A stretch of DNA of 34,918 nucleotides, taken from NCBI GenBank assembly GCA_026390585.1, contig JAPLFP010000055.1, forward strand, positions 1 through 34,918, in the 5' to 3' direction. The position numbers and the translations under genes were made by a program. This DNA is from Ignavibacteriales bacterium. GTDB lineage: Bacteria > Bacteroidota > Ignavibacteria > UBA10030. Of the stretch, positions 782 to 31,203 are shown in pieces. Each line of letters opens with the position of its first letter. Within the stretch, counting starts at the first letter, position 1. Below the pieces are notes generated by a model. It saw nothing but the letters and a program-made list of their open reading frames with translations. It was not told where the DNA came from and ran no database searches.

Positions 782-3700
782 TCAGTCACCCATGAAGTCA
801 CTTTTCTTCTCCGATTCCTTCCGCTTCCTCAAGTAATCGATCTGCTGCTCAACGAGGACCTTATGTTCCAGAAGTTCCACGACATTCAATAACGGCAACA
901 GGGTCTCCAGGTAATCAATTCGGCTTTGAATTACGGGTACCCAACTGCCCGATGCCGACCACGAAGTCGGCTCGATCGGAATCTTCTTGAAATCTTCAAT
1001 GTTCTTGTTGCGTTTTAAAAATTCTTCAAGGTACTTCCGACGTCGGTCCGGCTCGAATGACGTGAGCAGCCAAAACAGAAATTCCATGAGTTTGGACTCG
1101 ATAGCTCGCTTCTCGATCAATTCCAAAATCACCTCATCTTGGCGCGCCCTGATCTCTACCGCTTCTTTTGTTGCTTCTTTAGTTGCGAAGAAACACTCCA
1201 GGTAACTCGAGCCAAAATACCCAGAATCCCCCACCTTTCTTTGGACGTGCTCAATAATGCTAGTCATCAGGTCTTTGTAGTCAACTTTCATCCACAAAAA
1301 TGAATAGTCGTGCATGTCGTCGTACATGCTAAGCCAATGTTTTCTTGCATACATCCAATCGATGTATTCGATCATAAACCCGCGATCGACGCCGAGTATC
1401 ATCGCGAGGATTGCTCTGTTGTAGTCCGCATGTTCATCGGCATTTAACACGGCATAATACAGTTTCTTTAGGAGGGTCAGATGTTGCGTGAAAAACGATC
1501 GTAAGCTCTTGCACACTTCTGTATATGGATTGAAAAGCATCGATAGCGATCGAGCGAACTCAGGTTTGCCGACCGCCTTCTCGAGAACAATTTCAACGAC
1601 TTGAAGTACTAGCCCCGTTCTTATGGTCTCATATCTCAGCAGAAAATCCAAATGATGGGGCAGGTCGCTTTGGTCAGATTCACGATAGCATTCGAGTAGA
1701 ATCGAAGCATACTTGTGATCGATTTGATCTTGTTCAAGTAACGAAAAGAACATGAACATCCATCTTCTCTTTGATCGAAAGGACCGGCTGTCGATGAATT
1801 CAAACGTGGCGGGGACCCCCTGGACATCGATCAAGCCCTTGATTATCGGCCAGGGTTCAAGAAGAATTTCATCATCGTACATCAGATAGTGATGCACCAC
1901 AGCAGAAAACAGGTCTCCGTGATGCTCTGCAATTGCAATCATTGCAATAGCAAGTCCTTCCCGGAATTGCCATCTTTTGTGTTCGTTTCTCAGAACGGAT
2001 AACGCAACCCTGCACTCATCGATGAATTCACAAAGGCCCTTTTTGTTCTTGTCTTTCAGATGTTCATGGATTTCAGCCTTTCTCTTACTCATGTATTGAT
2101 CATATGACATATCCCGATATCGCTCATCGACAATGTCAGCCATCATAAAATCCGCGACCTGCAGCACATCGCTTTTGAAGGCACGCTTCAACCCTTCGTC
2201 CACAACCACCCCCGCTCGCGCCAAACAATCGAAGTATTCACCTGCAATCAGACTCTGATTTAAATCGTTTCGATCAAACCGCTCCTTTACAAATGGTATC
2301 AGTATTTCTGAATCGCTCTTGATTATCTCACTAGAAGAGACATGATACCCGGCGGTGCCGTACGTATGAATAACCTTTAGAACTGATTCTTTGTAGTCGC
2401 CCATGTCAAACAGAAGGATGAGGCCCCTAAGAATTGACCTCCTTACTTCAAAAAGCGACGGCATCGGCGGGAGCTCAAAATTGATCATGTTGAACTCCTG
2501 CCCCCCTTTGAATTCTGTCCGGTGAAATCGTGTTCGCAGAAAATGTTTTGCCACCAATAAGAACATTCTAATGGGCAAATTTGAATTCTCCCCTTTGCAT
2601 CTCTCAAGCACCTTGTCTATTACCTTCTGCTGATAAACAAATCCTTCTGCGTACGAGCGATGTGTGAAACCAAATCGGTCAATGAGCACGTAGGCTACCT
2701 TCATTGAATCGCCTGGCCGCTTCACCAGATAATCGAGTAATAGCCCGAGGGCAATCTCGAACGATCTAATACTCATCTGGTTGAACAGACCTAGTATGCT
2801 CAAGATAGATGGAACCTCCGCGGGCGCTGATACGAGTTCGTCGACATCAAGACTCACAGCTGCATTTTCAACCTCGAGGTTCTGAATTTTGTCCCTCATA
2901 AACAGAAGCGTGTCTGTTTCTTTTAGAAAAAAGAACATGTTCATGAGGTGGAGCAGTTTTTGAAAATCGTCTTGCTGAATGGCCCTCTGCCACGCCTTGT
3001 CTACTGGAGGCCTCATTGCTTCAACGAGTGCATCCCCATAGAAAGCATCGACAACAGGGTTCAGGCTCTCGATCAAACGTTCACGAAGTTGAGGAAAGAA
3101 GAACTCCAACAAGGCAGCGAAATCGATGACCTTCTCTTTAAAGAAAGCCCTATAAAACAGATATGTCGAGAGAATTTGGTCCGAAACACGAACCACCTCA
3201 TTCTCATAAAGATCGAAGATCTCAAGCTCATGCAGTCGCACAACAGCGTCGCGTATTGTCAACTCACCCATTCCAAACGCCTGCTCAATATCCTGCAACT
3301 TGTTCTTGTCACTTAAATCAATCACTCGGAAGAATGCTATGATCCCGGCAGTCTTCAGTAATGCAGGTTTCAAGAGATCGACCATGTCAGTTCGTAAACT
3401 GTTGTAGTATGCATCATATAGCGAGCTGACATCAGAAATACTCTCAAATGTTCCGCTTTGTTTTGCCAGAGTTGCCGCCATCATTGCCAATCGAGGATTT
3501 CCCTTTGAGATCCGCGCAATCCTCTCAAGAAAGAGATAGTTATCAATCCCAAACACATCACGAACGAGCCCGACGATTTCTTCATCTTTCCAATCATGCA
3601 GGACGATTTCTTTACTTATGCCAAAAGCTGCACTCGCCTCCTTCACTTTTGGCAAAGCATAGTCCCGCACGGTCGCGACAACCTTAATTCTTCGGTCGGG

Positions 3701-4549
3701 CTGATGATCTTGTAAAAGTTGAAGAATGTATTCAAATCGATTGACTCTATTTGCGTCATCTACAAATATCAAATAATCCCCCGGCTCAGCAAAATGAACT
3801 CGCAGGTCTTCAAAGAGATCGGGTCCGCGATTCGAAATGCAAGCCACCTTGTAATTAGGATGACTGTTCATGAATTGAGTGCAACATTCAAGTGCGATCC
3901 TCGATTTGCCAACTCCAGCCTTGCCTGACACGATGAGAAGATCGCTCTCTTCCAGATACTTCACACTCTCTCCAAGCTCAGCATCGCGAAAATGGAAAGT
4001 CGTATCTATCGGCGCAGCAAGCAGGTTGGCATTGTACCAAGTAACGAACTCCTCTTGTGTGACAATTTGACCCGTGTCAATTTCAATGCCTAAAAAATCC
4101 TTAGCAAGCCCCGGATACTTCTGATACAAATCAAACGACATCGGCCCCACGCCAAAAAGAGAAAGGTTCACTCCCTCACCCCGACACGCCTTTCCCAAGG
4201 ATTCGACCTCCGGGAGTGTCAGCTCGGAGGCATAGCAAAAGACAATTTCCTCGATTTTCCCCACCGGAACGCCAGTCTTCGACTCATTGAAACACTTATC
4301 AAGGTCAGACTCCAGCTTTTCCAGCAGTCGATCCTTTTGGACGGTGTGCTCCGCAAATACATATTTGCCGTTGGCAAGTGGAATGAAGGTATCCGGAGTG
4401 CCTTGCCTTACTCGATCGGCTCCGACCACGGATCCCATGGGATTTATTCGCTCATAACCTTTTCTGCGCAAGTACGCATCGGCGAGCTTCTGAAAGGCAG
4501 CTCCATCCAGCTCTTTCAGTCGATTTTGAATCTGATTGAGTTTCGACAT
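782..4549 (-). CDS. Endonuclease-like domain plus nSTAND-type NTPase, putative defence protein
   Basis: A 1255-residue protein. Residues 1-155 resemble a divergent PD-(D/E)xK restriction-endonuclease-like domain: D53 in GTPDTF and E67 in FAEHT, but threonine (T69) where the usual lysine of (D/E)xK would be. Residues 180-430 form a P-loop NTPase with Walker A GKAGVGKS (209-216) and Walker B LIFVDDAN (260-267), in the style of novel STAND ATPases (nSTAND3). The remaining 800 residues are leucine-rich, mostly helical sequence without recognised motifs and could be the ligand-sensing part. In known STAND defence proteins, target sensing triggers oligomerisation and effector activation; that role here is inferred. 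The gene diverges from the type I restriction operon across a 544-base gap. The start has only a weak ribosome site (GGTAAG). Confidence 0.7.
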   Translation of the reverse strand: MSKLNQIQNRLKELDGAAFQKLADAYLRRKGYERINPMGSVVGADRVRQGTPDTFIPLANGKYVFAEHTVQKDRLLEKLESDLDKCFNESKTGVPVGKIEEIVFCYASELTLPEVESLGKACRGEGVNLSLFGVGPMSFDLYQKYPGLAKDFLGIEIDTGQIVTQEEFVTWYNANLLAAPIDTTFHFRDAELGESVKYLEESDLLIVSGKAGVGKSRIALECCTQFMNSHPNYKVACISNRGPDLFEDLRVHFAEPGDYLIFVDDANRVNRFEYILQLLQDHQPDRRIKVVATVRDYALPKVKEASAAFGISKEIVLHDWKDEEIVGLVRDVFGIDNYLFLERIARISKGNPRLAMMAATLAKQSGTFESISDVSSLYDAYYNSLRTDMVDLLKPALLKTAGIIAFFRVIDLSDKNKLQDIEQAFGMGELTIRDAVVRLHELEIFDLYENEVVRVSDQILSTYLFYRAFFKEKVIDFAALLEFFFPQLRERLIESLNPVVDAFYGDALVEAMRPPVDKAWQRAIQQDDFQKLLHLMNMFFFLKETDTLLFMRDKIQNLEVENAAVSLDVDELVSAPAEVPSILSILGLFNQMSIRSFEIALGLLLDYLVKRPGDSMKVAYVLIDRFGFTHRSYAEGFVYQQKVIDKVLERCKGENSNLPIRMFLLVAKHFLRTRFHRTEFKGGQEFNMINFELPPMPSLFEVRRSILRGLILLFDMGDYKESVLKVIHTYGTAGYHVSSSEIIKSDSEILIPFVKERFDRNDLNQSLIAGEYFDCLARAGVVVDEGLKRAFKSDVLQVADFMMADIVDERYRDMSYDQYMSKRKAEIHEHLKDKNKKGLCEFIDECRVALSVLRNEHKRWQFREGLAIAMIAIAEHHGDLFSAVVHHYLMYDDEILLEPWPIIKGLIDVQGVPATFEFIDSRSFRSKRRWMFMFFSLLEQDQIDHKYASILLECYRESDQSDLPHHLDFLLRYETIRTGLVLQVVEIVLEKAVGKPEFARSLSMLFNPYTEVCKSLRSFFTQHLTLLKKLYYAVLNADEHADYNRAILAMILGVDRGFMIEYIDWMYARKHWLSMYDDMHDYSFLWMKVDYKDLMTSIIEHVQRKVGDSGYFGSSYLECFFATKEATKEAVEIRARQDEVILELIEKRAIESKLMEFLFWLLTSFEPDRRRKYLEEFLKRNKNIEDFKKIPIEPTSWSASGSWVPVIQSRIDYLETLLPLLNVVELLEHKVLVEQQIDYLRKRKESEKKSDFMGD

Positions 4550-5093: not shown

Positions 5094-6734
5094 ATGACCA
5101 CCAGGCCCAAGACCACATATCCGACTAAGGCAAAAAAGCCCAAGAAGGTCAATGCCACCGTCAATGGCCAAACGGACCTCATCAACAAACTTTGGCAGGC
5201 TGCTGTAACCCTTCGCGGCTCTATCGAGCCAGCAGATTACAAGCGGTACGTTTTGCCAATCATTTTCTTGCGATTTCTGTCACTCCGATTTGAACGGCGG
5301 CGTGATGAATTGACAAAGTTGGTTCAAGACCCCAAGAGCGAGTACTACACAACAAATCGCAAATCCGCAGAAGCTACCCTGAAAGACCCTGATGAATACC
5401 GCTCAGCCGGCGCGTTCATTGTCCCCGAAAAAGCCCGATGGGATCATATCCGAATTAATGCGCAGGCTGACAACGTCAAGGTCGTCCTCGACGATGCACT
5501 GGAGCTGTTGGAGAATACATATCCTGAGAAACTGCGTGGTCTCCTACCCCGCATCTACGCCGGATCCAACCTTGAACGGGAAAGCGTCACCGGGCTGATC
5601 AATCTCTTCTCAAAGGACGTCTTCAAGCAGGACCTCAAGGGAGAGGATCTGATCGGCAGGGTCTACGAATATTTCATTGGGGAGTTTGCCAACTCGGAAG
5701 GGAAACGGGGCGGCGAGTACTTCACACCGTCAAGCATAGTTCGCATGCTCGTAGCCATGCTCGAACCTGAAGAAGGCTCTGTCTTTGACCCGTGTTGTGG
5801 CTCCGGCGGCATGTTCGTGCAATCCGATATCTTCACTAAGCACAGTCACCGGCTGTCGTTCTTCGGACAGGAATCCAAGGACTTCACCTACCGCCTCTGC
5901 CGGATGAACCTCTTCATTCACGGCATCGATGGGAACATTCAGCTTGGCAACTCCTACACCGATGACAAACATGCGACGGTGAAAGCAGATTACCTTCTGG
6001 CAAATCCGCCCTTCAACGATGGTTCGAAAAGCGAAACCGGCTGGGGTGCAGACCGGATTCCCGACAAGGATCCAAGGCTCCAAATTCGTAATGACCGGAT
6101 GCCCCTGTCCCCGCGCAATGCGAACACAATGTGGATCATGCACTTCCTATACCACCTCGCTGAGGGAGGTGCGGCAGGATTCGTCATGGCGACGGGTGAG
6201 CTTTCCAATGGCGAAACCGCCCGCCTCGCCGTCCGAAAGACATTGGTGGAAAACGAATATGTTGATTGCATCGTCCAGCTCACGGGGCAACTCTTTGCCA
6301 ACACTCAGATCCCCTGCGCTCTGTGGTTTCTTTCTAAGAACCGCACCGGCACACATCGCTGCCGTAAGCGGACCGGTGAGATTCTGTTCATCGACGGCCG
6401 TAAGTTAGCCTCTCTCATTCCCGGCTCACGGAAGCAGAAGTATCTTTCTGACCTAGAATTAGAAAAGATGGCTGTTGTATACCGGAAGTTTCGACGGGAA
6501 GGCCGACCTGAAGATGTACCCGGCTTCTGCAGGGTGGCGGCGCTCGACGAAATCCGCGAGCACAATTATGCTCTGACACCCGGTCGATATGTCGGGTCAG
6601 AGAATGGTGTTGAGGACGACGAGCCGTTCGAAGAGAGATTCCCGAAACTCATGCAACAATTGAAAGAGCAGTTTGTGGAAGGGTCAAAGCTAGAGAAAGA
6701 GATCACGAAACAATTGGAGCAATTCAACGAGTGA
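5094..6734 (+). CDS. hsdM: Type I restriction-modification DNA methyltransferase subunit
   Basis: A 546-residue HsdM that transfers a methyl group from S-adenosylmethionine to the N6 of adenine and forms the M2S core with HsdS. An N-terminal HsdM helical domain (about 20-150) is followed by the N6-methyltransferase domain. Visible motifs are FDPCCGSGG (D232; SAM-binding motif I) and NPPF (304-307; catalytic motif IV). The length is normal and no lesion is seen. The C-terminus overlaps the first codon of hsdS in a GTGA junction (6731-6734), which implies translational coupling. The ribosome site before the ATG is poor. This is the one core subunit of the system that looks fully intact. Confidence 0.93.
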   Translation: MTTRPKTTYPTKAKKPKKVNATVNGQTDLINKLWQAAVTLRGSIEPADYKRYVLPIIFLRFLSLRFERRRDELTKLVQDPKSEYYTTNRKSAEATLKDPDEYRSAGAFIVPEKARWDHIRINAQADNVKVVLDDALELLENTYPEKLRGLLPRIYAGSNLERESVTGLINLFSKDVFKQDLKGEDLIGRVYEYFIGEFANSEGKRGGEYFTPSSIVRMLVAMLEPEEGSVFDPCCGSGGMFVQSDIFTKHSHRLSFFGQESKDFTYRLCRMNLFIHGIDGNIQLGNSYTDDKHATVKADYLLANPPFNDGSKSETGWGADRIPDKDPRLQIRNDRMPLSPRNANTMWIMHFLYHLAEGGAAGFVMATGELSNGETARLAVRKTLVENEYVDCIVQLTGQLFANTQIPCALWFLSKNRTGTHRCRKRTGEILFIDGRKLASLIPGSRKQKYLSDLELEKMAVVYRKFRREGRPEDVPGFCRVAALDEIREHNYALTPGRYVGSENGVEDDEPFEERFPKLMQQLKEQFVEGSKLEKEITKQLEQFNE

Positions 6735-7938
6735 CTACAACAGTTCACAGAGTCAGAGATCTCATCGACGCCAATCATTTGATGGCTTTCATCTCGACGA
6801 TGCAGATCGGTTTCCAGAAGAAGACTTGCACAAAGTGGGTGATAAGATCAGCCGACCAGGCGACGTGGTGTTCACATCCAAAGGGACAGTCGGCAGGTTT
6901 GCGTTCGTCCGGCCAGAAACGCCAAGGTTTGTCTATTCCCCGCAGCTCTCATACTGGCGAAGTCTGAATCAGGATTTCATCGATTCACGCTTCCTTTACT
7001 ATTGGTTGCAGTCCCGGGAGTTTCTTGAGCAAGCTGCTGGAGTGAAGGGCCAAACTGACATGGCAGACTACGTGAGTCTCAAAGATCAGAGATTCATGAA
7101 AATCACGCTGCCGCACGTTGATATACAACGTGCTATTGCTTGCATCCTCGGTGCATTGGACGACAAGATCGAGCTCAACCGAAGGATGAACATTACGCTT
7201 GAGGCCATGGCACAATCACTCTTCAAGTCGTGGTTCGTGGACTTTGATCCGGTGGTTGTCAAGATGGACGGGAAGAAGCCATACGGCATGAATGAAGCAA
7301 CGGCAGCACTATTTCCCGACAAGCTGGTCGAGTCGCAGGTTGGGCTGATGCCGGAAGGGTGGGACCTAAGAAGACTTGACGAAGTCTGCAGTATCAATCC
7401 ACAAACTATCAGCAATGGCTACGCATTGAATCACATTCAATATGTTGACATTTCATCTGTCACGCGTGGAATACTCACTCAAACAACGCCTTACTCATTG
7501 AAAGAAGCCCCTAGTCGAGCCCAGCGGTTGGTGTCTGATGGTGATACAATCTGGTCATGCGTTAGACCTAACCGTCAGTCTTATTTGTTTATTGACCACC
7601 CACCCGAGGATCTTGTCGTTTCGACTGGCTTCGCCGTCTTATCGCCCACAGATGTTCAACCAGTCTATCTATACACGTGGGTGACTACAGACGACTTCGT
7701 TGACTATTTGACAGCCAACGCTGAGGGGAGTGCCTACCCCGCTGTCCGTCCGGAAGCCTTTGCGAAAGCTCTTGTCCTCGTCCCTACGAAGCAAATCCTC
7801 AATCACTTTGAAGTACAAATCAACCCAATGCGGAGGCTGATCGCTCAGAACAACAGGGAAACTGTTGCCCTCCAATCAGTACGTGGCACGCTTCTCCCGA
7901 AGCTCTTGTCCGGCGAGGTGAGTGTGAAGGAGGTGTAA
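6731..7938 (+). pseudogene. hsdS: Type I specificity subunit with 5' out-of-frame deletion
   Basis: HsdS carries two target-recognition domains that set the DNA sequence bound by the complex. Reading from the GTG at 6731, the frame gives a typical HsdS start (VHRVRDLIDANHL) and then nonsense from about 6780. In the next frame, typical HsdS sequence begins abruptly at about 6781 (DGFHLDDADRFPEEDLHKVG) and stays open to 7938. The piece that normally joins these two parts, roughly 25-30 residues around an IGDGYRAKN-like stretch, is absent. An out-of-frame deletion of about 80 bases explains this. The rest is normal: central conserved region LGALDDKIELNRRM, a second recognition domain, and the end LLPKLLSGEV. 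A TTG at 6826 could start a shortened protein without the beginning of the first recognition domain. A sequencing or assembly error is the alternative. Confidence 0.75.
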
Positions 7939-8015
7939 CATATCTTAGTGGAGAGCGAGCTGCCTTGTCGGCAAGTTCGCTGGCCATCCCCTCCATTCCA
8001 AAGAAAGGGTAAGGG

Positions 8016-8480
8016 ATGAACATCTTTCTGAGCTACAGTGTCAACGATATTGACCTGGTCCGTCAGATTGCTGATTGCATTCATCGCCATGGCCAAGTAT
8101 ACTACTGGGATAAAAGCAAAATTCCAGGCCAAGAATCTTGGCCATCTATCTTTGAATGGATTGACGCGTCTGATCTTGTCATCGCAATTATCACAGGCAA
8201 CACTGTAAGTCGCGCGATGGCTGTTGGACAAGAGATCGGGCATGCAAGAGCCAAGGGGAAAGCGATAATCCCGATTGTTACCCCTGAGGTACCTGCAACT
8301 GAACTCGGCTTTTTGAGTGGAATAGTCTACCAACGTCTCGATAGGAACAACCCGAAAGAGGCTATCGCGGCAATTGAGAAGATTGTCCTCGACATGAAGC
8401 GTCGGAAAGAGGAGAATGTTCAGGCATTCTTTGTCATTGGCGGGCTGGTTGCGTTGATCCTGCTGGCTTCACACGAATGA
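8016..8480 (+). CDS. TIR-domain protein with C-terminal membrane anchor
   Basis: A 154-residue protein. Residues 1-125 read as a bacterial TIR domain: opening MNIFLSYSVND, a WDKSKIPGQESW loop, SDLVIAIIT, and VGQEIGHARAKG with a glutamate in the position of the TIR catalytic Glu. Residues 134-150 (AFFVIGGLVALILLA) form one hydrophobic helix, likely a membrane anchor. Many bacterial TIR domains cleave NAD+ when a partner senses infection; whether this one does is inferred. It lies between hsdS and hsdR on the same strand, with 77 and 69 bases on either side, so it probably shares their transcript. A ribosome site (AAAGGGTAAGG) precedes the ATG. No separate sensor domain is fused to it. Confidence 0.8.
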   Translation: MNIFLSYSVNDIDLVRQIADCIHRHGQVYYWDKSKIPGQESWPSIFEWIDASDLVIAIITGNTVSRAMAVGQEIGHARAKGKAIIPIVTPEVPATELGFLSGIVYQRLDRNNPKEAIAAIEKIVLDMKRRKEENVQAFFVIGGLVALILLASHE

Positions 8481-8549
8481 AGCAATGTAGCAAAGCCCAA
8501 GACAAAGAAACATCATTTCTCTAAACAAGCAGAAAGCAGACCTTGAGTC

Positions 8550-11390
8550 ATGCCCCACCGTGGCACTGAAACCGAGTTTGAGCTAACCACGATCGAGCGT
8601 ATTGAACGCCTCGGGTACGGCTACATTCACGGAGAGGAGTTGGACCGCCCCCATGAGGAGGTCGTGCTGCGAGACGTGCTGAGAAGGGTGTTGGTAAAGG
8701 GCTATCCCGACCTGCCTCCCCGCTCCATCGATGAAGCCGTAGCCCGCTTTGCACGCCCTGAAGGAGTGGACACGCTACGCCGCAACATGTCGTTCCACAA
8801 TGACCTCACTCGTGGCATCGAGGTTAAGGTTGAACATCCGAACGGCAAAGTTGAGCACCGCCACTTGTACGCAATCGACTGGGACACACCTACGAACAAT
8901 GAGTTCCTTGTTGTCAACCAGTTTCCCATCCACGGCAAGAATGATCGCCGTCCAGACATTCTCATCTTTATCAACGGCCTTCCTCTGGTTCTCTTCGAGC
9001 TTAAGAATCCATACGACAAACACCCGACAGTCGATCACGCACTCAACCAGATAGCACACTACAGGAACGACATCGCACAACTGTTTGACTTCAACGCCGT
9101 CACCGTCGTCTCGGATGGGGTCACCACACTGCACGGGGCGTGGACTTCAACGTCGGAGTGGTTCGCACCGTGGAAATCCATCGATGGTTTCAACACCGAG
9201 GCAAATTCCACAGGCAGCATGAAAATGCTGGTCGAGGGTATGTTGCCAAAAGACCGCCTTTTGTCCTACATCAGAGATTTTCTTGTGTTTGAGGTCGTCA
9301 ACGACAAGATTACCAAGAAGGGCGCGAAGTACCATCAATTCTTCGCCGTCCGGATCGCCGCACAAAAAGCCATCGAATCATTCAGACCCGATGCCGACAA
9401 ACGAATCGGCGTCATTTGGCACACGACCGGTTCAGGTAAGTCATTGTCCATGGTGTTTCTCGTCGGAATCCTCCGTCGACATCCCGAGATGCAGAACCCC
9501 ACTTTCGTGATCGAAGTAGACCGAACCGACCTCGACAATCAGATCCATGACCAGTTTGTTGCTGCGCGCGCTCTCGTTGGTGATGTCAAACATGCTGACA
9601 GCGTCGATGATTTGCGCACCATGCTTCAGACTGAAGGCGGCGAAGTGATCTTTACGACCATCGAGAAGTTCAGGCTCAAGTCCGATGAAGGTGAAATTGA
9701 GCACCCTGTTCTTTCGAATAGATCCAACCTCATTATTATCGCGGATGAAGCTCACCGCACTCAGTATGGTTTCCTCAAAGGTTACGCTCGCTATCTCGCA
9801 GAAGCACTCCCAAATGCCAGGCGCATGGGATTCACCGGGACACCGGTCAGCTTCAGCGGATCTGACACCGTTGAAGTGTTTGGTGATCTGATCCATTGGT
9901 ATGATATCAAGCAGTCGCAGGCCGACAAGGCAACCGTTCCAATCTTCTATGCGCCACGACAAATCAAACTGCATCTTACCAGTGCCGACATTGACGCTGC
10001 ACTTCAAGACATTATTTCTAGACACCCCGTCGATGACCTCGAACGAAGGCAGGCACAGTGGTCAGCTTTGGCGTCGGCAGCAGGTTCGAAGGACCGGCTC
10101 GATCGACTCGCGAGTGACCTTCTGATGCACTTCCTGGATCGCACAGCCACGCTGAAAGGTAAGGCGATAATTGTGTGTATGACGAGGGAAAACTGCGTCC
10201 GTCTCTACGATGCCCTTACTGTATTGCCCAATTGCCCTGAAGTCAAGATTGTGATGACGGGCGACCTCTCGAATGATCCGCCTGAATGGAGCGCCGCAGG
10301 TCACATCACGACGAAGGCTCAACGTGATGCAATCAAACAACGGATGATCGACCCCGATGACCCGCTCAAAATTGTCATCGTGTGTGATATGTGGCTCACT
10401 GAGCCGGCGCCAGATGTGGCTGAAGAAGCAAAACCTGTGTTCTTCGAATGTCTAGAGGTCGTGCGCAAACAACTCCCCACCAACGTTGATTACGGCTCCT
10501 GGCGCCGGTTGTCACGAATTGAACTTGAGGACAGATTTGCTGCAGTGTTTGGTCACCTCACAGACACAGAAGAACGACAGGATGACTTCTTGCAGGATGA
10601 GTTGAGGCTTACACAGTCCTATCTCCTTGTGAAGCATCTTGACGAGTGCCGCCGTATTGCAGACGAAATCATATTCTATCAGCGGGTCCGCAACCAGCTT
10701 CTGAAGCTGTCTCCCGGACGTAAGGATAAGCCAGAACTCGATCAGGCCGTTCGAGACCTCGTAGATGACAGTCTCCAGACAGAGGGGGTCGTCGACATTT
10801 TCAATTTGTCAGGTATCGAGAAAGCTGACATTTCAATTCTCGATGACAAGTTCCTCCAAACGTTCAAGGACAAGCCGTTCGAAAACCTTCGTGTCAAACT
10901 GCTCGAAAAGCTCATCAGTGACGCGATTGAGTTTCGGCAGAGAGGCAATCTTGCAAAGGCAAGGAGTTTCAAGGAGCTGCTGGAAGCGACTCTCAGGAAT
11001 TATCACAATCGGCTGATTGATGCGGCAGCGGTTGTCAAGGCAATGATCCAGATCCGGCTGGAGATGGAGAATGAGGATAAGCGCGCCGCGGAGTTGGGAC
11101 TAGAGCCAGAAGAGCTTGCATTCTATGATGCAGTTGCAGCTAACTACGACAACATTTATGGTGTGAAGTTCCTTCGTGACCTAGTCCATGAGGTCGTCCT
11201 GACGATCAAGCGAAACCTCAAAGTTGACTGGACGGAACCTCATAGAGAGGATATCAAGGCAACAATTCGTTCTGCAGTCAAACGTGTGCTGCGTAACCGA
11301 GGAGTCAAGACTGAGGACTTCGACAAGTTTGTTGGCGAAATCATGAGACAAGCAGAAGCTCTATATGCCGACTGGCCGTTAGCGGCGTGA
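8550..11390 (+). CDS. hsdR: Type I restriction subunit with internal deletion
   Basis: HsdR is the ATP-driven translocase and nuclease of type I systems. This copy has 946 residues, shorter than the usual 1000 or more. The nuclease domain is present (D136 in RPDILIF; E150-L-K152). So is the first helicase lobe: Walker A TGSGKS (293-298), DEAH (399-402), GFTGTP (428-432). The second lobe runs normally to VIVCDMWLT (609-617) and then jumps to EPAPDVAEEAKPV. The expected GFDAP stretch and the QAIARVNR-like motif VI, plus the VVDY stretch, are missing, about 60-75 residues. The reading frame is kept, so a product is made, but ATP-driven translocation should be impaired. The C-terminal helical domain looks normal. 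The stop overlaps a possible GTG of the next gene. Confidence 0.88.
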   Translation: MPHRGTETEFELTTIERIERLGYGYIHGEELDRPHEEVVLRDVLRRVLVKGYPDLPPRSIDEAVARFARPEGVDTLRRNMSFHNDLTRGIEVKVEHPNGKVEHRHLYAIDWDTPTNNEFLVVNQFPIHGKNDRRPDILIFINGLPLVLFELKNPYDKHPTVDHALNQIAHYRNDIAQLFDFNAVTVVSDGVTTLHGAWTSTSEWFAPWKSIDGFNTEANSTGSMKMLVEGMLPKDRLLSYIRDFLVFEVVNDKITKKGAKYHQFFAVRIAAQKAIESFRPDADKRIGVIWHTTGSGKSLSMVFLVGILRRHPEMQNPTFVIEVDRTDLDNQIHDQFVAARALVGDVKHADSVDDLRTMLQTEGGEVIFTTIEKFRLKSDEGEIEHPVLSNRSNLIIIADEAHRTQYGFLKGYARYLAEALPNARRMGFTGTPVSFSGSDTVEVFGDLIHWYDIKQSQADKATVPIFYAPRQIKLHLTSADIDAALQDIISRHPVDDLERRQAQWSALASAAGSKDRLDRLASDLLMHFLDRTATLKGKAIIVCMTRENCVRLYDALTVLPNCPEVKIVMTGDLSNDPPEWSAAGHITTKAQRDAIKQRMIDPDDPLKIVIVCDMWLTEPAPDVAEEAKPVFFECLEVVRKQLPTNVDYGSWRRLSRIELEDRFAAVFGHLTDTEERQDDFLQDELRLTQSYLLVKHLDECRRIADEIIFYQRVRNQLLKLSPGRKDKPELDQAVRDLVDDSLQTEGVVDIFNLSGIEKADISILDDKFLQTFKDKPFENLRVKLLEKLISDAIEFRQRGNLAKARSFKELLEATLRNYHNRLIDAAAVVKAMIQIRLEMENEDKRAAELGLEPEELAFYDAVAANYDNIYGVKFLRDLVHEVVLTIKRNLKVDWTEPHREDIKATIRSAVKRVLRNRGVKTEDFDKFVGEIMRQAEALYADWPLAA

Positions 11391-14725: not shown

Positions 14726-15097
14726 TCAGCCATACTTTGACCATAATCGACCCGGACTTGGGTCACACTCGATCCAAGATAGGCCTAAAATTGAGTCAGG
14801 CTGACGGAAATGCCAGTCGGACAATCCCCCCCAGCGAAAGAAACGATCCAGAGGAATCATCATCGATTCCATCAGTATTTCGATCACCATGGTGCCGATG
14901 ATGAGCAGCACACCGAGACCGACACCGCCGCCGATGCCACCCTCACCATTCACGACGCCAATAACGACTTCGATCAGCGTACAAGCCACCGCGATGTCCA
15001 CAACGATGACGATCTGGAGGTAGATGAGAAGGAGAAGGAGCACGGGAAGGAGGATGCAAAGGAGGACGAGGAGAAGTACGAGAAGGAGAAGGAGCAC
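14726..15097 (-). CDS. Possible small membrane protein, uncertain
   Basis: A 123-residue minus-strand frame: a leucine-rich start (from the purine tract on the other strand), a long hydrophobic helix, a glycine-rich turn (GEGGIGGGVGLG), a second hydrophobic segment and a polar tail. It could be a two-helix membrane protein. However, the complementary plus-strand frame (14810-15184) is also open, highly charged and followed by a terminator. No ribosome site is visible. Either frame, or neither, may be real. Confidence 0.22.
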   Translation of the reverse strand: MLLLLLVLLLVLLCILLPVLLLLLIYLQIVIVVDIAVACTLIEVVIGVVNGEGGIGGGVGLGVLLIIGTMVIEILMESMMIPLDRFFRWGGLSDWHFRQPDSILGLSWIECDPSPGRLWSKYG

Positions 15098-15240
15098 AAG
15101 CAGCAGGATGAGAAAGAGGCAAGAATGGGGATCAGGATCATGCAGAGATTGCGGCTATTCCATTCCCGCGGTTGTTTCTCCTGACCACATTTCCTATATT
15201 CTCTCCGAAGTTGCTTCATAACATTTCATCCGAGTCCAGA

Positions 15241-24913: not shown

Positions 24914-26761
24914 ATGTCTAGGGCATTAGAGGAGATTATTTCAAGCGGAAGCATTACTAGCGCCAAGGAATTGGAGATTACCCCCAGTCTTGTGGGTTAT
25001 GGCAGTAATTTCACGCCTAATCCGACGGCAATTAAGATCAACGATTCATCTGAAGTCGGAAATTTGGACTCAACTGGTTACAACCATTCCTCGTCCTCAA
25101 TTCCCGACCAAACCTGTTACCTAAATATCACAGACTCGAAGGGCAGTATGGCTTCTCCGGAAATCGCTGATAAACTCAAAGGTGGGATATTGAGAGGCGG
25201 AAAGGATTACTTCAGGGATCGTTCTCCAATTGTGGCAAGAGGTAGAAAAGACCGGGAAAAGAAAACGATAGTTTTCTATGTCCCGAACAACTTGGACCTC
25301 GAAGCAAAGCTAGCTCAACATTACCCAGATATGCTTAGACACAAAGACAAATTATACTATGTGTTGGATAAATTGTACGTAATGGCCTTCCTTGACAAGC
25401 GGTTTAGTTCTTCAAGTTCTTACTTACCATTTCTAAGTCAGAATTCCTCTAGTTCTAATGCAATTTCTCCTTCTGACTATAACACAATTACTTCCCTTAG
25501 CAACAATCCTTTTTCAACAAATAGTTTTAATACGTTTAGCTCTTCATCTCTTTGTAATGCCATACCATCTCCTCCTTTTTCTTCAAATACTCCATTTCAT
25601 AACAATAATATGAATGTGTTACACACTTATGGTGTCTACTCAGAAGGTTTGTGTACTAAACCGAAGAAAACGAGAAAGGGATTAGGAAAAAGAAAGAGGA
25701 CAGCCAAAGAACCGACAAAGCATGGCAAAAGGCCCGGAAAAAGGGAATACATACGTCTTAACACCAAAATACTCAGGAGGGTGCTGACGTGCGAGCTGGC
25801 TAGGCCAATAATGGAAGCCTTAACCTCTCTCAATTTCGCGGAAACTGACAACCAATACATTTTGGGAGAAAAGTCGAGAGGATATAAACTGACCCTACCA
25901 TATAGATCCGCTCCGTTCACAACAGTGACGATCGCAGACAAACGATTTCACAACAAGTTGGTGAAGATCAAAGAAAGAGAGATCCTGAATCTGTCCCCCC
26001 TTCACCAACAAATTTATCAGAACCTGTCTTCGTTTTCCTTCGACTTAGTAGCTGCCGAGGCTCTCTTAGACCAGATGAATGGCAATACTAGACAATTTCT
26101 CACCGTGAGACTCGCTATTGACAAAATACAGAAACAGGACTTCTTTTTCTCGACAGATAGGAAGACGGGGCGAATCTTTCACAATTACTGCAATCTTAAG
26201 AAAGAATTCCGCCAGTGCATCCTGGATGCAGATGGACTGACGATGGTTGACATCGACATTTGCAACAGTCAACCCTTCTTTCTCGCCCTCATGCTAAAGG
26301 AGAGTCTTGTCGAGTCTGACAACGTTCTTAAGTACATCGCACTGACAGTGGATGGACAACTGTATGATCATATCGGCGAGAAGTATTCCATGGAAAGAAC
26401 ATACGTGAAAAAACTTGTCTTCACACTCTTCTTTTGCAGGAACAATCAGAAGGCAAAACTCAAGGAGATATTCCAAGAAGAGTTCCCGGATGTCAATTCA
26501 TTTATCGAAGAAGTCAAAGGAAACGACTACAAGAACCTTTCAATCCAGTTACAGAAGCTAGAAGCATCGATGATGATTGACACGATCGGTCAAAGACTTT
26601 TGGAAAAGGGAATCACGTTCATCACAATTCACGATAGCTTCATGGTGTCCGCAAAAGATGTTGAGATTACACTGCACGTGATGAAAGAAGCCTTCATGGG
26701 GGGATATGGGGTCGTGCCAAAATTTGGAGTCACGCGTGGGGATTGTAAGGTGATCCGATGA
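24914..26761 (+). CDS. Divergent family-A-like polymerase, putative replicase
   Basis: A 615-residue protein behind a strong GGGAGG site. The C-terminal 240 residues carry the order of motifs seen in family-A polymerases: a GRIFHNYCNLKKEFRQ segment, motif A VDIDICNSQP (D446/D448), a basic helix in motif B position (K499, K500; YVKKLVFTLFF) and motif C ITIHDSF (H573-D574). There is no 3'-5' exonuclease domain. The N-terminal part is unlike known domains; residues 163-242 are a Ser/Asn-rich low-complexity insert whose coding strand is very poor in G, followed by a basic linker (KKTRKGLGKRKR). Position behind origin-like repeats suggests it replicates the element. The T7-like RNA polymerase family shares the HDSF motif C, so DNA versus RNA synthesis is open. 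Its stop overlaps an ATG of the next frame. Confidence 0.68.
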   Translation: MSRALEEIISSGSITSAKELEITPSLVGYGSNFTPNPTAIKINDSSEVGNLDSTGYNHSSSSIPDQTCYLNITDSKGSMASPEIADKLKGGILRGGKDYFRDRSPIVARGRKDREKKTIVFYVPNNLDLEAKLAQHYPDMLRHKDKLYYVLDKLYVMAFLDKRFSSSSSYLPFLSQNSSSSNAISPSDYNTITSLSNNPFSTNSFNTFSSSSLCNAIPSPPFSSNTPFHNNNMNVLHTYGVYSEGLCTKPKKTRKGLGKRKRTAKEPTKHGKRPGKREYIRLNTKILRRVLTCELARPIMEALTSLNFAETDNQYILGEKSRGYKLTLPYRSAPFTTVTIADKRFHNKLVKIKEREILNLSPLHQQIYQNLSSFSFDLVAAEALLDQMNGNTRQFLTVRLAIDKIQKQDFFFSTDRKTGRIFHNYCNLKKEFRQCILDADGLTMVDIDICNSQPFFLALMLKESLVESDNVLKYIALTVDGQLYDHIGEKYSMERTYVKKLVFTLFFCRNNQKAKLKEIFQEEFPDVNSFIEEVKGNDYKNLSIQLQKLEASMMIDTIGQRLLEKGITFITIHDSFMVSAKDVEITLHVMKEAFMGGYGVVPKFGVTRGDCKVIR

Positions 26762-26856: not shown

Positions 26857-27525
26857 ATGCGCAATACAAAGCAGTCCGTTCAACGTTCATTCAAATCCAG
26901 AGCTCATTCACCACGGTTCAAGATTGACAAACAGCTGAAAAAGGAACGCTCTAACCAAGTCAGGGTCTACGTAAAGGGGCTTTCGGAACACGGATATTTC
27001 CCCAAAGGAGCCTTCGCTGTCATCATTGATTTTCGTGGCAACACCATAGAGCTGAGTGGATCCGAAGAGAACCAATCAAACATTAGGATGGAGATGTTCG
27101 CTATGATCAAAGCCATTGAACATCTCAAAGCTGAATATCGAACAGTTGTCGTCTTCTCTGAATTGAATATGCTGGTGGATGCCTTTCAGAAGGATTGGAT
27201 TGGTAATTGGGCACAATTGGGATGGAGGAAAGGAAATGGAAGTCGTCTTGAGAACCGTGACCTTTGGAAACAAATCTATGAAAGTTCTTACTCAATGTTC
27301 GTTGAATTCAGCAGACCCGAGAGTCCAAGGGACGTGGAATTCATCCGACTGGCTACCCATTATGCAAAAGTGGCCTTGAATCTTCCATTGATAAAAGACC
27401 AAGTACGATTTCTTCCGATCAGTTCAAAGTCGGGCATACACATGGTCACGTTTTATCCAGACTTGCAGGACATTCCAGAAGAAGACTTCGAATTTAGCGG
27501 AGGTGAGAGTGAGGATCGAAAATGA
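26857..27525 (+). CDS. RNase HI-fold protein with replaced catalytic residues
   Basis: I prefer the ATG at 26857 because AAAGGAG stands 6 bases before it; an ATG at 26758 overlapping the polymerase stop would add 33 residues. The 222-residue protein follows RNase HI along its length: VRVYVKG, then GAFAVIIDFRG, IRMEMFAMIKAIEHLK, VVVFSELNMLV, DWIGNWAQLGWRKGNG, ENRDLWKQI. Against E. coli RNase HI, the catalytic set D10-E48-D70-D134 becomes K40-E79-E102-I163, so only one residue is unchanged. It is probably not a standard RNase H and may bind RNA-DNA hybrids or serve as a structural partner of the polymerase. D159 or E161 might compensate. It is co-transcribed with the polymerase gene. Confidence 0.75.
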   Translation: MRNTKQSVQRSFKSRAHSPRFKIDKQLKKERSNQVRVYVKGLSEHGYFPKGAFAVIIDFRGNTIELSGSEENQSNIRMEMFAMIKAIEHLKAEYRTVVVFSELNMLVDAFQKDWIGNWAQLGWRKGNGSRLENRDLWKQIYESSYSMFVEFSRPESPRDVEFIRLATHYAKVALNLPLIKDQVRFLPISSKSGIHMVTFYPDLQDIPEEDFEFSGGESEDRK

Positions 27526-27944
27526 ACGATTCATCTTTTGATCATTGGAAAATTGGTGGCGGCGAAAGCCGTGTCTGGATGAACTCACCAGAGCTTGTGA
27601 AAGAACTTCGAAAAGCTTGTGGAAGAGGTGCGACTTACGAAAAAGCCGGCAGGGTGATTGAGTGGCAATTTGTCGTCCCCTTCAAGCTTGTCAGATTCTA
27701 TTACCGCAGGTTTCTGTTGTTGAGCTCCCAAAATCGTGTTTTGGAGGGTGTTGAAAATGAACGAGTTACAGAGGCGAGTACAAAGAAATTTGCCCGTGGC
27801 GAAAGCTCTGGGAGAAAAAGGTACATAGACAAGCCCAGAAGAGCTTCTAAGGCAAATCGGCAGATTTCGAGTAACAGCAGACAGATCAGCAAACAGGGGA
27901 AAGCTCTAACTGGAAATCCACTCTACAAGGAGGACAAAACATGA
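27522..27944 (+). CDS. Small basic protein of unknown function
   Basis: A 140-residue protein whose ATG overlaps the stop of the RNase H-like gene (ATGA), so translation is coupled. The first half (about 10-65) looks globular: ESRVWMNSPELVKELRKACG, YEKAGRVIEWQFVVPFKLVRFYYRRF. The second half is basic, Ser/Asn-rich and probably disordered. It contains no cysteine pair or catalytic motif. It may be a DNA-binding accessory of the replication module; no family is recognised. Confidence 0.55.
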   Translation: MNDSSFDHWKIGGGESRVWMNSPELVKELRKACGRGATYEKAGRVIEWQFVVPFKLVRFYYRRFLLLSSQNRVLEGVENERVTEASTKKFARGESSGRKRYIDKPRRASKANRQISSNSRQISKQGKALTGNPLYKEDKT

Positions 27945-29027: not shown

Positions 29028-30047
29028 ATGGCTTCACTTATCAAGGGAAACAACCGTAACTACACCATAGTTTATCACGACTTCGAGCGTCGGAGATGGA
29101 AATCCACGTTTACTAGCGACCATGAGGAAGCCCAACGAATATTCGATTTGTTGGTACCAAATCTCGAGCGTTCGAGGAAGACGAGTCTCAGTTACCTTGC
29201 CCATCGAATCGATGAATATACCAAGGCAAACCTTTCAGGGGAAACCGCCAAGATGTACTCAAGGACATTCAGAATGCTACAAAGTTCCCTCGGAGATTTG
29301 CCCCTCAGAAATATCACTACACTCAATATCGAAAAGTTTAAGCAGGACCGGCTAAAGCATGTACTTCCTGTCACCGTCAATATTGACCTTCGAACGCTGC
29401 GTTCTGCGTTCAACCTTGCTGTAGATTGGGGACTGATGGACCAAAATCCTGCCAAGCGCTGCAAGCTGTTAAGGATTCCACAGATAGACCATATGTTCCT
29501 TTCAAAATCGGAATTTCTCAACCTCTGTTCGTCTATCAATGATGAGCAGTTTCGTCGTCTTCTCCTTCTTGCAGTCCGAACTGGAATGCGACGAGGAGAA
29601 ATTGTGAATCTGTGCTGGGAAGATATGGACTTCACAAGAAAGTCTATTCGAATTCGAAATAGGCAGACCTTTGTGGTCAAGGGAATGCGACCTCGCACAA
29701 TCCCGATGCCTGAGGACATTTGGCAGCACTTTCAGACTTTGAGCAAGACCAGCGGTTATGTCTTCACTAAGGTCAATGGTTCACCACTCAGCGCGCACTC
29801 CGTTTCCCGTAGATTCAAGCGCCTCCTGCGAATATGTGGGTTGCCCCAGGAACTACATTTTCACTCACTTCGCCGAACCTACGCCTCTTGGTTAGCTTTG
29901 GCAAGCGCTCCGATTCATGACATTCAACGTCTTCTCGGTCACCAAAATGTTCAGACAACCGAGCTGTACATAACCTTGCCCTCCGAGCACCTCAGGCAAA
30001 GTGCGAGTCGAGTAGAACTGCCTGAGGTCCTCAAACGTACTGGTTAA
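29028..30047 (+). CDS. Tyrosine recombinase, copy 1 (rightward)
   Basis: A 339-residue site-specific recombinase with an N-terminal SAM-like core-binding domain (about 55-150) and a C-terminal catalytic domain. Catalytic residues are visible: R188 (TGMRRGE), H279 and R282 (HSLRRT), the GH box (LLGHQNV) and nucleophile Y314 (TELYITL). The residue after the second arginine is R where most relatives have H (HxLRH). No ribosome site is evident. It faces the second recombinase tail to tail, sharing TTAA as stop codons. It could carry out integration or excision at the tRNA site, or belong to an older element. Confidence 0.9.
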   Translation: MASLIKGNNRNYTIVYHDFERRRWKSTFTSDHEEAQRIFDLLVPNLERSRKTSLSYLAHRIDEYTKANLSGETAKMYSRTFRMLQSSLGDLPLRNITTLNIEKFKQDRLKHVLPVTVNIDLRTLRSAFNLAVDWGLMDQNPAKRCKLLRIPQIDHMFLSKSEFLNLCSSINDEQFRRLLLLAVRTGMRRGEIVNLCWEDMDFTRKSIRIRNRQTFVVKGMRPRTIPMPEDIWQHFQTLSKTSGYVFTKVNGSPLSAHSVSRRFKRLLRICGLPQELHFHSLRRTYASWLALASAPIHDIQRLLGHQNVQTTELYITLPSEHLRQSASRVELPEVLKRTG

Positions 30048-31063
30048 TTCAGGACAATCTGTTTTGATAACCCTTCCACCGTACTATGCAATTGTGAAGG
30101 TGCAAGGTGACTATAGCGTGCCGTAACTGAAATGGTCGAATGACCCATGAGTTGTTGGACTTCGTAGATGGGCACACTATTCTGAACCAACCAACTTGCA
30201 AAGGTATGGCGTAGTGAATGAAAATGGTAGTTATCTTTGAAGCCCAGACGGCGAAGATATTGTTTGAATCTTCGCGTGACCCAGACATCTCGGACTTTTC
30301 TACCATTAATGGTGACAACATACTCCGTTTGCTCGGAGATCTTGAGTTCACTCAACAATTGAATAGCCACATTGTTCAGCGGTATGACCCTCCTTTTTCC
30401 TGCTTTCGTTCTGAACGTAGAATCTGACTGAATCCTGACGACTCGTTCCGTCAAGGAAATGTCTCTCCACTTGAGATTGACGAGTTCACCCCTCCTCATT
30501 CCCGTGCAAGCAGCCAAGACAACGATTGACCGCAACCATTTTTCCTTAAACGCCGAAACCAAGGCTTGAAAATCGGAAGCACTGAAGAAAGCGGGAGAGC
30601 ATTCTGGAATCCGACACAGCGGTACATGAGAGAATGGGTTCGATTTTAACATCTCCCATCGAACGGCATAGGAGAATGCTGCCCGGAGCGTACGCAGTTC
30701 GATGTTGAGAGTAACTGGCGAGACCTCACCGAGTCTTCGCTGACGGTACAGATCAATGTGGCGAGCCGAGATGTTAGAGATTTCCAGATCACCGGCAACT
30801 CTCAGGAAGTGCGTCAGAGACTTCTTGTAGATTCCGACTGATCCCTTTGAATAGATGCTCGCTGCGAAGGAAAGAAAATCCCGGATGTAGATTGAAAGGC
30901 GTGGTGGTTGTTTCTTCCGAACATCATCAAGATCGATTGCCGGAAGTTTTCGCAAAGCATCTGACTTCTGACGTTCTCCGGTACTGATCCACCGGCGTCG
31001 GCCGTCGCGGGTATAGGAGATGAAATAGTACACTCCGTTGGAGCGCTTGAAGAGGGTAGGCAT
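30044..31063 (-). CDS. Tyrosine recombinase, copy 2 (leftward, next to tRNA-Glu)
   Basis: This 339-residue recombinase shares the architecture of its partner but has only moderate identity to it. The full catalytic set is present: R190 (TGMRRGE), H282 and R285 (HSLRHT), H308 (LMGHST) and Y317 (ARYSHL). The N-terminus has an arm-binding-type start (TLFKRSNGVYYF) as in lambda-like integrases. Its start lies 21 bases from the TGTTAGCA pair and about 70 from the tRNA-Glu 3' end. It is the likelier integrase of the element, its gene reading away from the attachment site. Confidence 0.92.
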   Translation of the reverse strand: MPTLFKRSNGVYYFISYTRDGRRRWISTGERQKSDALRKLPAIDLDDVRKKQPPRLSIYIRDFLSFAASIYSKGSVGIYKKSLTHFLRVAGDLEISNISARHIDLYRQRRLGEVSPVTLNIELRTLRAAFSYAVRWEMLKSNPFSHVPLCRIPECSPAFFSASDFQALVSAFKEKWLRSIVVLAACTGMRRGELVNLKWRDISLTERVVRIQSDSTFRTKAGKRRVIPLNNVAIQLLSELKISEQTEYVVTINGRKVRDVWVTRRFKQYLRRLGFKDNYHFHSLRHTFASWLVQNSVPIYEVQQLMGHSTISVTARYSHLAPSQLHSTVEGLSKQIVLN

Positions 31064-31103: not shown

Positions 31104-31130
31104 GGTGAGATTTTGCGGCTGTAAGTCTAG

Positions 31131-31203
31131 TACCCCCAACGAGATTCGAACTCGTGTACCGAGCTTGAAAAGCTCGTGTCCTAGGCCTCTAGACGATGGG
31201 GGC
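31131..31203 (-). tRNA. tRNA-Glu (anticodon TTC)
   Basis: A 73-base cloverleaf on the minus strand. The acceptor stem GCCCCCA pairs with TGGGGGT (one G-T pair at the end). The D-arm, the anticodon arm CGAGC-TTTTCAA-GCTCG (anticodon TTC) and the T-loop TTCGAAT are all in place. The 3' CCA is not encoded. Its 3' end faces the recombinase genes, so it is the likely attachment site. Confidence 0.95.

Follow-up and report, generated by a model that had tools for sequence, protein, structure and literature searches.

Most known cases of RNase H domains that have lost catalysis come, to our knowledge, from reverse transcriptases, from the spliceosome (Prp8) and from one inactive bacterial group. The original RNase H domain of the Ty3-type reverse transcriptase became an inactive connection domain (PMC11363490, PMC5603734), and the RNase HI of B. 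subtilis was reported to be without nuclease activity, the Group A to which it belongs being devoid of the basic-protrusion handle (PMC1950709). In the laboratory, the double replacement D10R-E48R turned E. coli RNaseHI into a sensor of hybrids that does not cut them (PMC6296784, PMC5706798). According to a survey of the superfamily, every RNase H-like enzyme conserves the Asp of strand beta-1 (PMC3985635). Here we describe a 222-aa RNase HI homologue of an Ignavibacteriales bacterium, encoded within the window, i.e. the whole stretch of 34,918 nucleotides that was analysed. The protein, referred to below as pseudo-RNase HI, is a real, somewhat unusual pseudoenzyme and a singleton.

The gene and its fold

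The pseudo-RNase HI gene is found within a tight gene run, 95 bp downstream of the gene for a 615-aa polymerase, and its stop overlaps the start of the next gene (27522). This part of the window holds the following features:

24914..26761, + strand: unannotated family A DNA polymerase core, 615 aa (AF2 model, 6vdd_A match, invariant motifs)
26758, + strand: alternative in-frame ATG of the pseudo-RNase HI frame, from which the product would be 255 aa
26844..26850, + strand: Shine-Dalgarno-like AAAGGAG, 6 nt before ATG 26857 (from sequence)
26857..27525, + strand: pseudo-RNase HI gene, 222 aa (Pfam, PDB and PHROG matches, AF2 model, fold matches)
26857..26952, + strand: basic N-terminal extension, residues 1-32, with 11 K/R and 2 D/E, calculated pI 11.9; the first 20 residues of low confidence
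26953..27399, + strand: RNase HI-fold domain, residues 33-181 (AF2 and fold matches, 3h08_B)
27400..27522, + strand: acidic C-terminal tail, residues 182-222, calculated pI 4.4, low confidence
27522..27944, + strand: 140-aa ORF overlapping the pseudo-RNase HI stop (ATGA), with a basic C-terminal half and of no known family (Pfam, PHROG)

The open reading frame and its start are sound as given in the preliminary description, ATG 26857 being preceded by a good ribosome-binding site; the alternative ATG at 26758 shares nucleotides with the stop codon of the gene before it. Between the two charged ends, the fold domain itself is neutral (calculated pI 7.0), which counts against the binding role considered below. 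A hidden frameshift restoring a normal C-terminus was considered and rejected, as the other two frames hold no RNase H tail motif, and the intact helix E at residues 157-175 of the AF2 model also argues against it. Over 27457-27522 the acidic tail includes the motif DIPEEDFEF, which appears reminiscent of SSB-type tails.

Judged by sequence searches, the similarity of the 222-aa protein to RNase HI is far beyond chance. The Pfam family RNase_H (PF00075) was matched at 1.6e-9 with 38.5 bits, above the gathering cut-off of 25.8, the best sequence match in the PDB was the Chlorobium tepidum RNase H1 (3h08, 5e-14), and the PHROG RNase H match reached 4.8e-19; the score for the NCBIfam RNase HI equivalog NF001236 was 69.3 bits and thus below its cut-off of 160. 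The AlphaFold2 model, built with 62 sequences, has block pLDDT of 86-97 over residues 31-180 and contains, with the complete fold at residues 34-175, every RNase HI element in order, i.e. a five-strand sheet and helices A-E, the handle included (handle helices at 104-111 and 114-120, helix E at 157-175). Foldseek matched the model to 3h08 with a TM of 0.88 of the target. The best match in the VIA comparison was 3h08_B (Z 21.5, 2.0 A over 141 residues), and matches were also obtained with the E. coli D10A variant 1jl1 (Z 18.7) and with human RNase H1 D210N bound to hybrid (Z 17.6). The high-confidence model and these PDB matches bear out the RNase HI fold that had been proposed earlier.

Active-site and substrate-handling residues

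Residue columns were read from an alignment with 70 RNase HI sequences (E. coli, bacterial relatives and viral-contig relatives), which placed the following codons:

26974..26976, + strand: K40, at the D10 position
27091..27093, + strand: E79, at the E48 position, retained
27160..27162, + strand: E102, at the D70 position
27196..27225, + strand: retained Trp handle W114, W118, W123 (E. coli W81, W85, W90)
27355..27357, + strand: T167, at the D134 position

The columns of D10 and D70 hold D in all 70 reference sequences, and the preliminary description correctly read K40 and E102 there. It was right as well that D134 is lost, but it placed the wrong residue at this position: the D134 column (D in 68/70) is occupied by T167, and the I163 that it named belongs to the N130 column (N in 68 of the 70), which is a further loss. 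Two points had gone unmentioned, namely that H124 (68/70) is replaced by P157 and that E48, an E in 70/70 sequences, is kept as E79. Pseudo-RNase HI hence presents K/E/E/T in place of the DEDD metal-binding carboxylates of the RNase HI enzyme; DEDD was found in 105 of 109 RNase HI sequences, and KEET in pseudo-RNase HI alone. Four acids in a proper metal site were sought by alignment and element mapping and were not seen in this way: D159 and E161 align near E. coli 126-128, upstream of the D134 position, and the beta-1 carboxylate position is a Lys, with no acidic residue replacing the beta-1 Asp. The K/E/E/T columns, the AF2 model and the fold matches together give good support to the earlier view that the fold is conserved and the active site lost. 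From these residues RNA hydrolysis appears very unlikely, and we regard the protein as inactive with high confidence. On a different contig the host encodes a complete DEDD RNase HI, and it also has an RNase HII, thus the activity is not needed from the pseudo-RNase HI gene.

The losses are centred on the active site, and residues that handle the substrate are retained; the kept E. coli positions include N44, R46, M47, W81, W85, W90, N100, D102, L103 and W104. In structures of RNase H with hybrid, the handle Trp residues and N100 lie on the DNA-strand side of the groove. Among strongly conserved columns, 14/20 are kept in helix A and the handle/helix D region versus 4/23 in the beta1-loop, beta4 and beta5-helix E regions (Fisher p 0.0007, a post hoc value, with the regions grouped after the data were seen). 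Furthermore, N45 is replaced by I and the basic K86/K87/R88 patch by A/Q/L, losses that could weaken hybrid binding. The most economical inference would be that the protein binds or acts as a scaffold, as suggested in the preliminary description, since the retained conserved positions belong mainly to the N100/DLW region, the Trp handle and helix A.

Comparison with known systems

With the bacterial RNase HI (rnhA; E. coli 2rn2 group, C. tepidum 3h08), pseudo-RNase HI shares the whole fold, the three-Trp handle, E48, N44, R46-M47, N100 and D102-L103-W104. It differs in D10=K, D70=E, D134=T, H124=P and N130=I, in the added basic N-terminal arm and acidic C-terminal tail, and in a less basic handle patch. 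The engineered D10R-E48R sensor and human D210N resemble it in that active-site charge is reversed or lost in an intact fold, with uncut hybrid binding to be expected; by analogy, the change of D10 to K reverses the charge in the same way as D10R does in the sensor. In contrast to the sensor, pseudo-RNase HI is natural, keeps E48 and has many more active-site changes, and its binding is predicted. The closest arrangement in kind is that of the retroviral reverse transcriptase, in which the connection (tether) domain is a catalysis-less RNase H fold working next to a polymerase, whereas pseudo-RNase HI is encoded by a separate ORF, without fusion, and its neighbour is a family A polymerase and not a reverse transcriptase. 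With the B. subtilis-type Group A it has in common that it is a bacterial RNase HI homologue, inactive according to the report on B. subtilis; unlike that handle-less group, it possesses the handle (W114, W118, W123; helices 104-111 and 114-120) and has lost carboxylates.

A separate family of dead RNase HI was found in four phage contigs (L275-L278; L067:6011-6376), with S/T/G fixed at D10/E48/D70. For the closest pair, dN was 0.08 and dS about 2.4, indicating strong purifying selection. Conservation of this family indicates that dead RNase H proteins are maintained in mobile genomes, which is no proof for the window protein. The two have RNase HI homology, a partly kept handle/DLW region, the loss of D10 and D70 and a mobile genome in common, but the replacements in the phage family are different ones (S/T/G) and E48 is lost too. 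Specific kinship was considered and rejected, as pseudo-RNase HI ranks well below canonical enzymes with the profile of the phage family, so that the losses in the two are independent. In the first phage contig, the dead RNase HI gene stands with two DEDD RNase HI paralogues.

The neighbouring polymerase and the mobile element

For the 615-aa polymerase, Pfam gave only a weak sub-threshold RNA_pol match (21.1 bits vs 22), NCBIfam gave no match and the sequence-profile search of the PDB yielded nothing useful; fold comparison alone provided a match. The AF2 model is confident over most of residues 280-611, and its residues 353-611 match 6vdd_A with Z 15.4 and 3.0 A over 243 residues, showing the palm/fingers fold of Pol I, an assignment made among the fold families on the comparison list. 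Residues D448, N451-P454, K499, H573 and D574 are invariant in two alignments, and they include the motif A Asp (D448), the motif B Lys (K499) and the motif C His-Asp (H573, D574). The polymerase family (24914-26761; L167-L246) displays the motifs DIxNSQP, RxxxK and HDS and is unnamed by Pfam or NCBIfam, and the best PHROG match is phrog_4756, of unknown function. Its relatives occur in huge phages, in a Hymenobacter plasmid, in 156 viral-contig stretches and, sporadically, in genomes of the same phylum (15/395, counting the genome from which the window comes). When viral and genome contigs were scanned with the polymerase or pseudo-RNase HI as a single protein, by short exact peptides that could miss distant relatives, no relative was confirmed. 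The locus points to a polymerase family that is widespread, occurs in huge phages and has no name in the libraries searched.

Downstream, the window contains the following features:

29028..30047, + strand: tyrosine recombinase of the element (Pfam Phage_integrase 7e-32)
30044..31063, - strand: second tyrosine recombinase (Pfam 4.4e-33), tail to tail with the first and 66 bp from tRNA-Glu
31130..31203, - strand: tRNA-Glu, a likely insertion hot spot

The two recombinases are 36% identical and their stops overlap by 4 bp. Genomes of the same genus carry both, one or no such recombinase at the tRNA-Glu, and the polymerase and pseudo-RNase HI are absent from the same-genus genomes examined; the region therefore represents variable mobile DNA. 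Att-like direct repeats marking the element ends were looked for in the window contig and none were seen. In one genome of the genus (L254), the orthologous recombinase pair is about 3.5 kb apart with an 825-aa ORF in between.

No ortholog of pseudo-RNase HI was detected in genome contigs of 84,980 species (scanned with short exact-peptide seeds, which could miss distant relatives), in viral contigs or in 391 class and 296 phylum genomes. As no convincing RNase H was found beside 115 polymerase-relative loci (1.5-8 kb flanks), the pairing of polymerase and pseudo-RNase HI may be accidental. A 52-aa ORF fragment beside a polymerase relative (L050, E 0.008) was taken as a chance match. A conserved neighbourhood around the polymerase was likewise discarded, as neither pseudo-RNase HI nor any of six neighbouring window proteins recurs beside the 115 relatives. 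In the 109-sequence set, the terminal branch of pseudo-RNase HI measures 2.5 against a median of 0.37, and for so long a branch relaxed constraint fits as well as new function.

Possible function of pseudo-RNase HI

We give an even chance to our preferred reading, namely that the pseudo-RNase HI of this integrative element binds an RNA-DNA hybrid or a duplex for the polymerase of the element. Taken by themselves, the binding of hybrid or duplex appears equally balanced, and service to the adjacent polymerase, a partnership for which gene order is the one suggestive line of evidence, is possible but doubtful. Lys40 would take the place of the metal beside or between E79 and E102, and since it would occupy the metal position, two-metal catalysis would not proceed. 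With the retained handle and the basic N-terminal arm, pseudo-RNase HI could then grip an RNA-DNA hybrid, or else the duplex of primer and template, and leave it uncut, so that an RNA primer or R-loop would be held or protected against host RNase H for the element's polymerase. In a more far-reaching and rather unlikely version, the element would replicate with a polymerase in two parts, a minimal family A core and, encoded separately, a pseudo-RNase HI whose task is to clamp or protect the hybrid of RNA primer and template. This would be a bacterial parallel, of independent origin, to the polymerase and connection domain of retroviral reverse transcriptase.

The same degenerate RNase H could instead be a protein-protein module of a replication complex, keeping the fold as a scaffold with no hybrid recognition of its own. 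The inactive connection domain of Ty3-type reverse transcriptase is a precedent, the charged tails on both ends would suit such a module, and so would the adjacent polymerase, which has no annotated exonuclease and whose match covers the palm/fingers region only. However, the retained residues are largely those that face the hybrid in RNase HI, and there would be no need for a mere scaffold to keep them; moreover, pseudo-RNase HI is a separate protein, unfused and absent beside other polymerases of the family, hence we regard this role as unlikely. Somewhat less likely still is a decaying passenger, i.e. an RNase HI that was captured by the element, lost its function and is now drifting. A singleton on a very long branch, with no orthologs found, in a pairing unseen elsewhere and in a host that supplies RNase H, would be in line with such drift; nevertheless, the 222 codons are intact behind a good ribosome site, the fold is confident, and the changes concentrate at the active site while fold and handle stay, whereas random decay would strike core and handle alike and usually break the frame.

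It is very improbable that the protein is still a nuclease whose metal site has been rearranged to use E79, E102 and either D159 or E161, perhaps with E44 as well; such an enzyme might work with a single metal or on a different substrate. Two carboxylates do stand at canonical positions, D159/E161 lie at the start of helix E, and the helix acids are those that vary most among RNase H-like enzymes (PMC3985635), but the beta-1 Asp, described as universal among these enzymes (PMC3985635), is a Lys here, H124 and N130 are lost and D159/E161 fall near E. coli 126-128, not 134. Marginally the least probable is that the protein acts as a competitor independently of the polymerase, keeping host RNase H or host defence away from R-loops or hybrids. 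R-loops are bound but not resolved by dead RNase H proteins (PMC6296784, PMC5706798), and restriction and other defence-like genes are also present in the window, yet PADLOC gives no match for pseudo-RNase HI, and there is no link to a known anti-defence family.

If binding for the element's polymerase is the true function, nature would have its own version of the laboratory R-loop sensor, in the form of a free-standing dead RNase HI with handle that a mobile element carries behind a family A polymerase; this would suggest that the RNA primers of elements are guarded from the RNase H of the host. If the gene is only drifting, pseudo-RNase HI would be a curiosity.

Other genes of the window

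Type I restriction-modification genes are located at 5094-11390, and a small ORF with a TIR domain and a hydrophobic C-terminus (8016-8480) lies between the specificity and restriction genes; the Pfam match of the specificity gene starts inside the domain, and its gene start may be truncated or misread. In addition, we observed a large protein with a weak match to the PADLOC candidate PDC-S73 (782-4549) and an AAA ATPase with weak similarity to IetA, an anti-phage ATPase (20334-21587); the region of these genes may be a defence island. A charged low-complexity ORF (14810-15184) has 12-nt periodic Lys/Glu repeats at 15014-15119.
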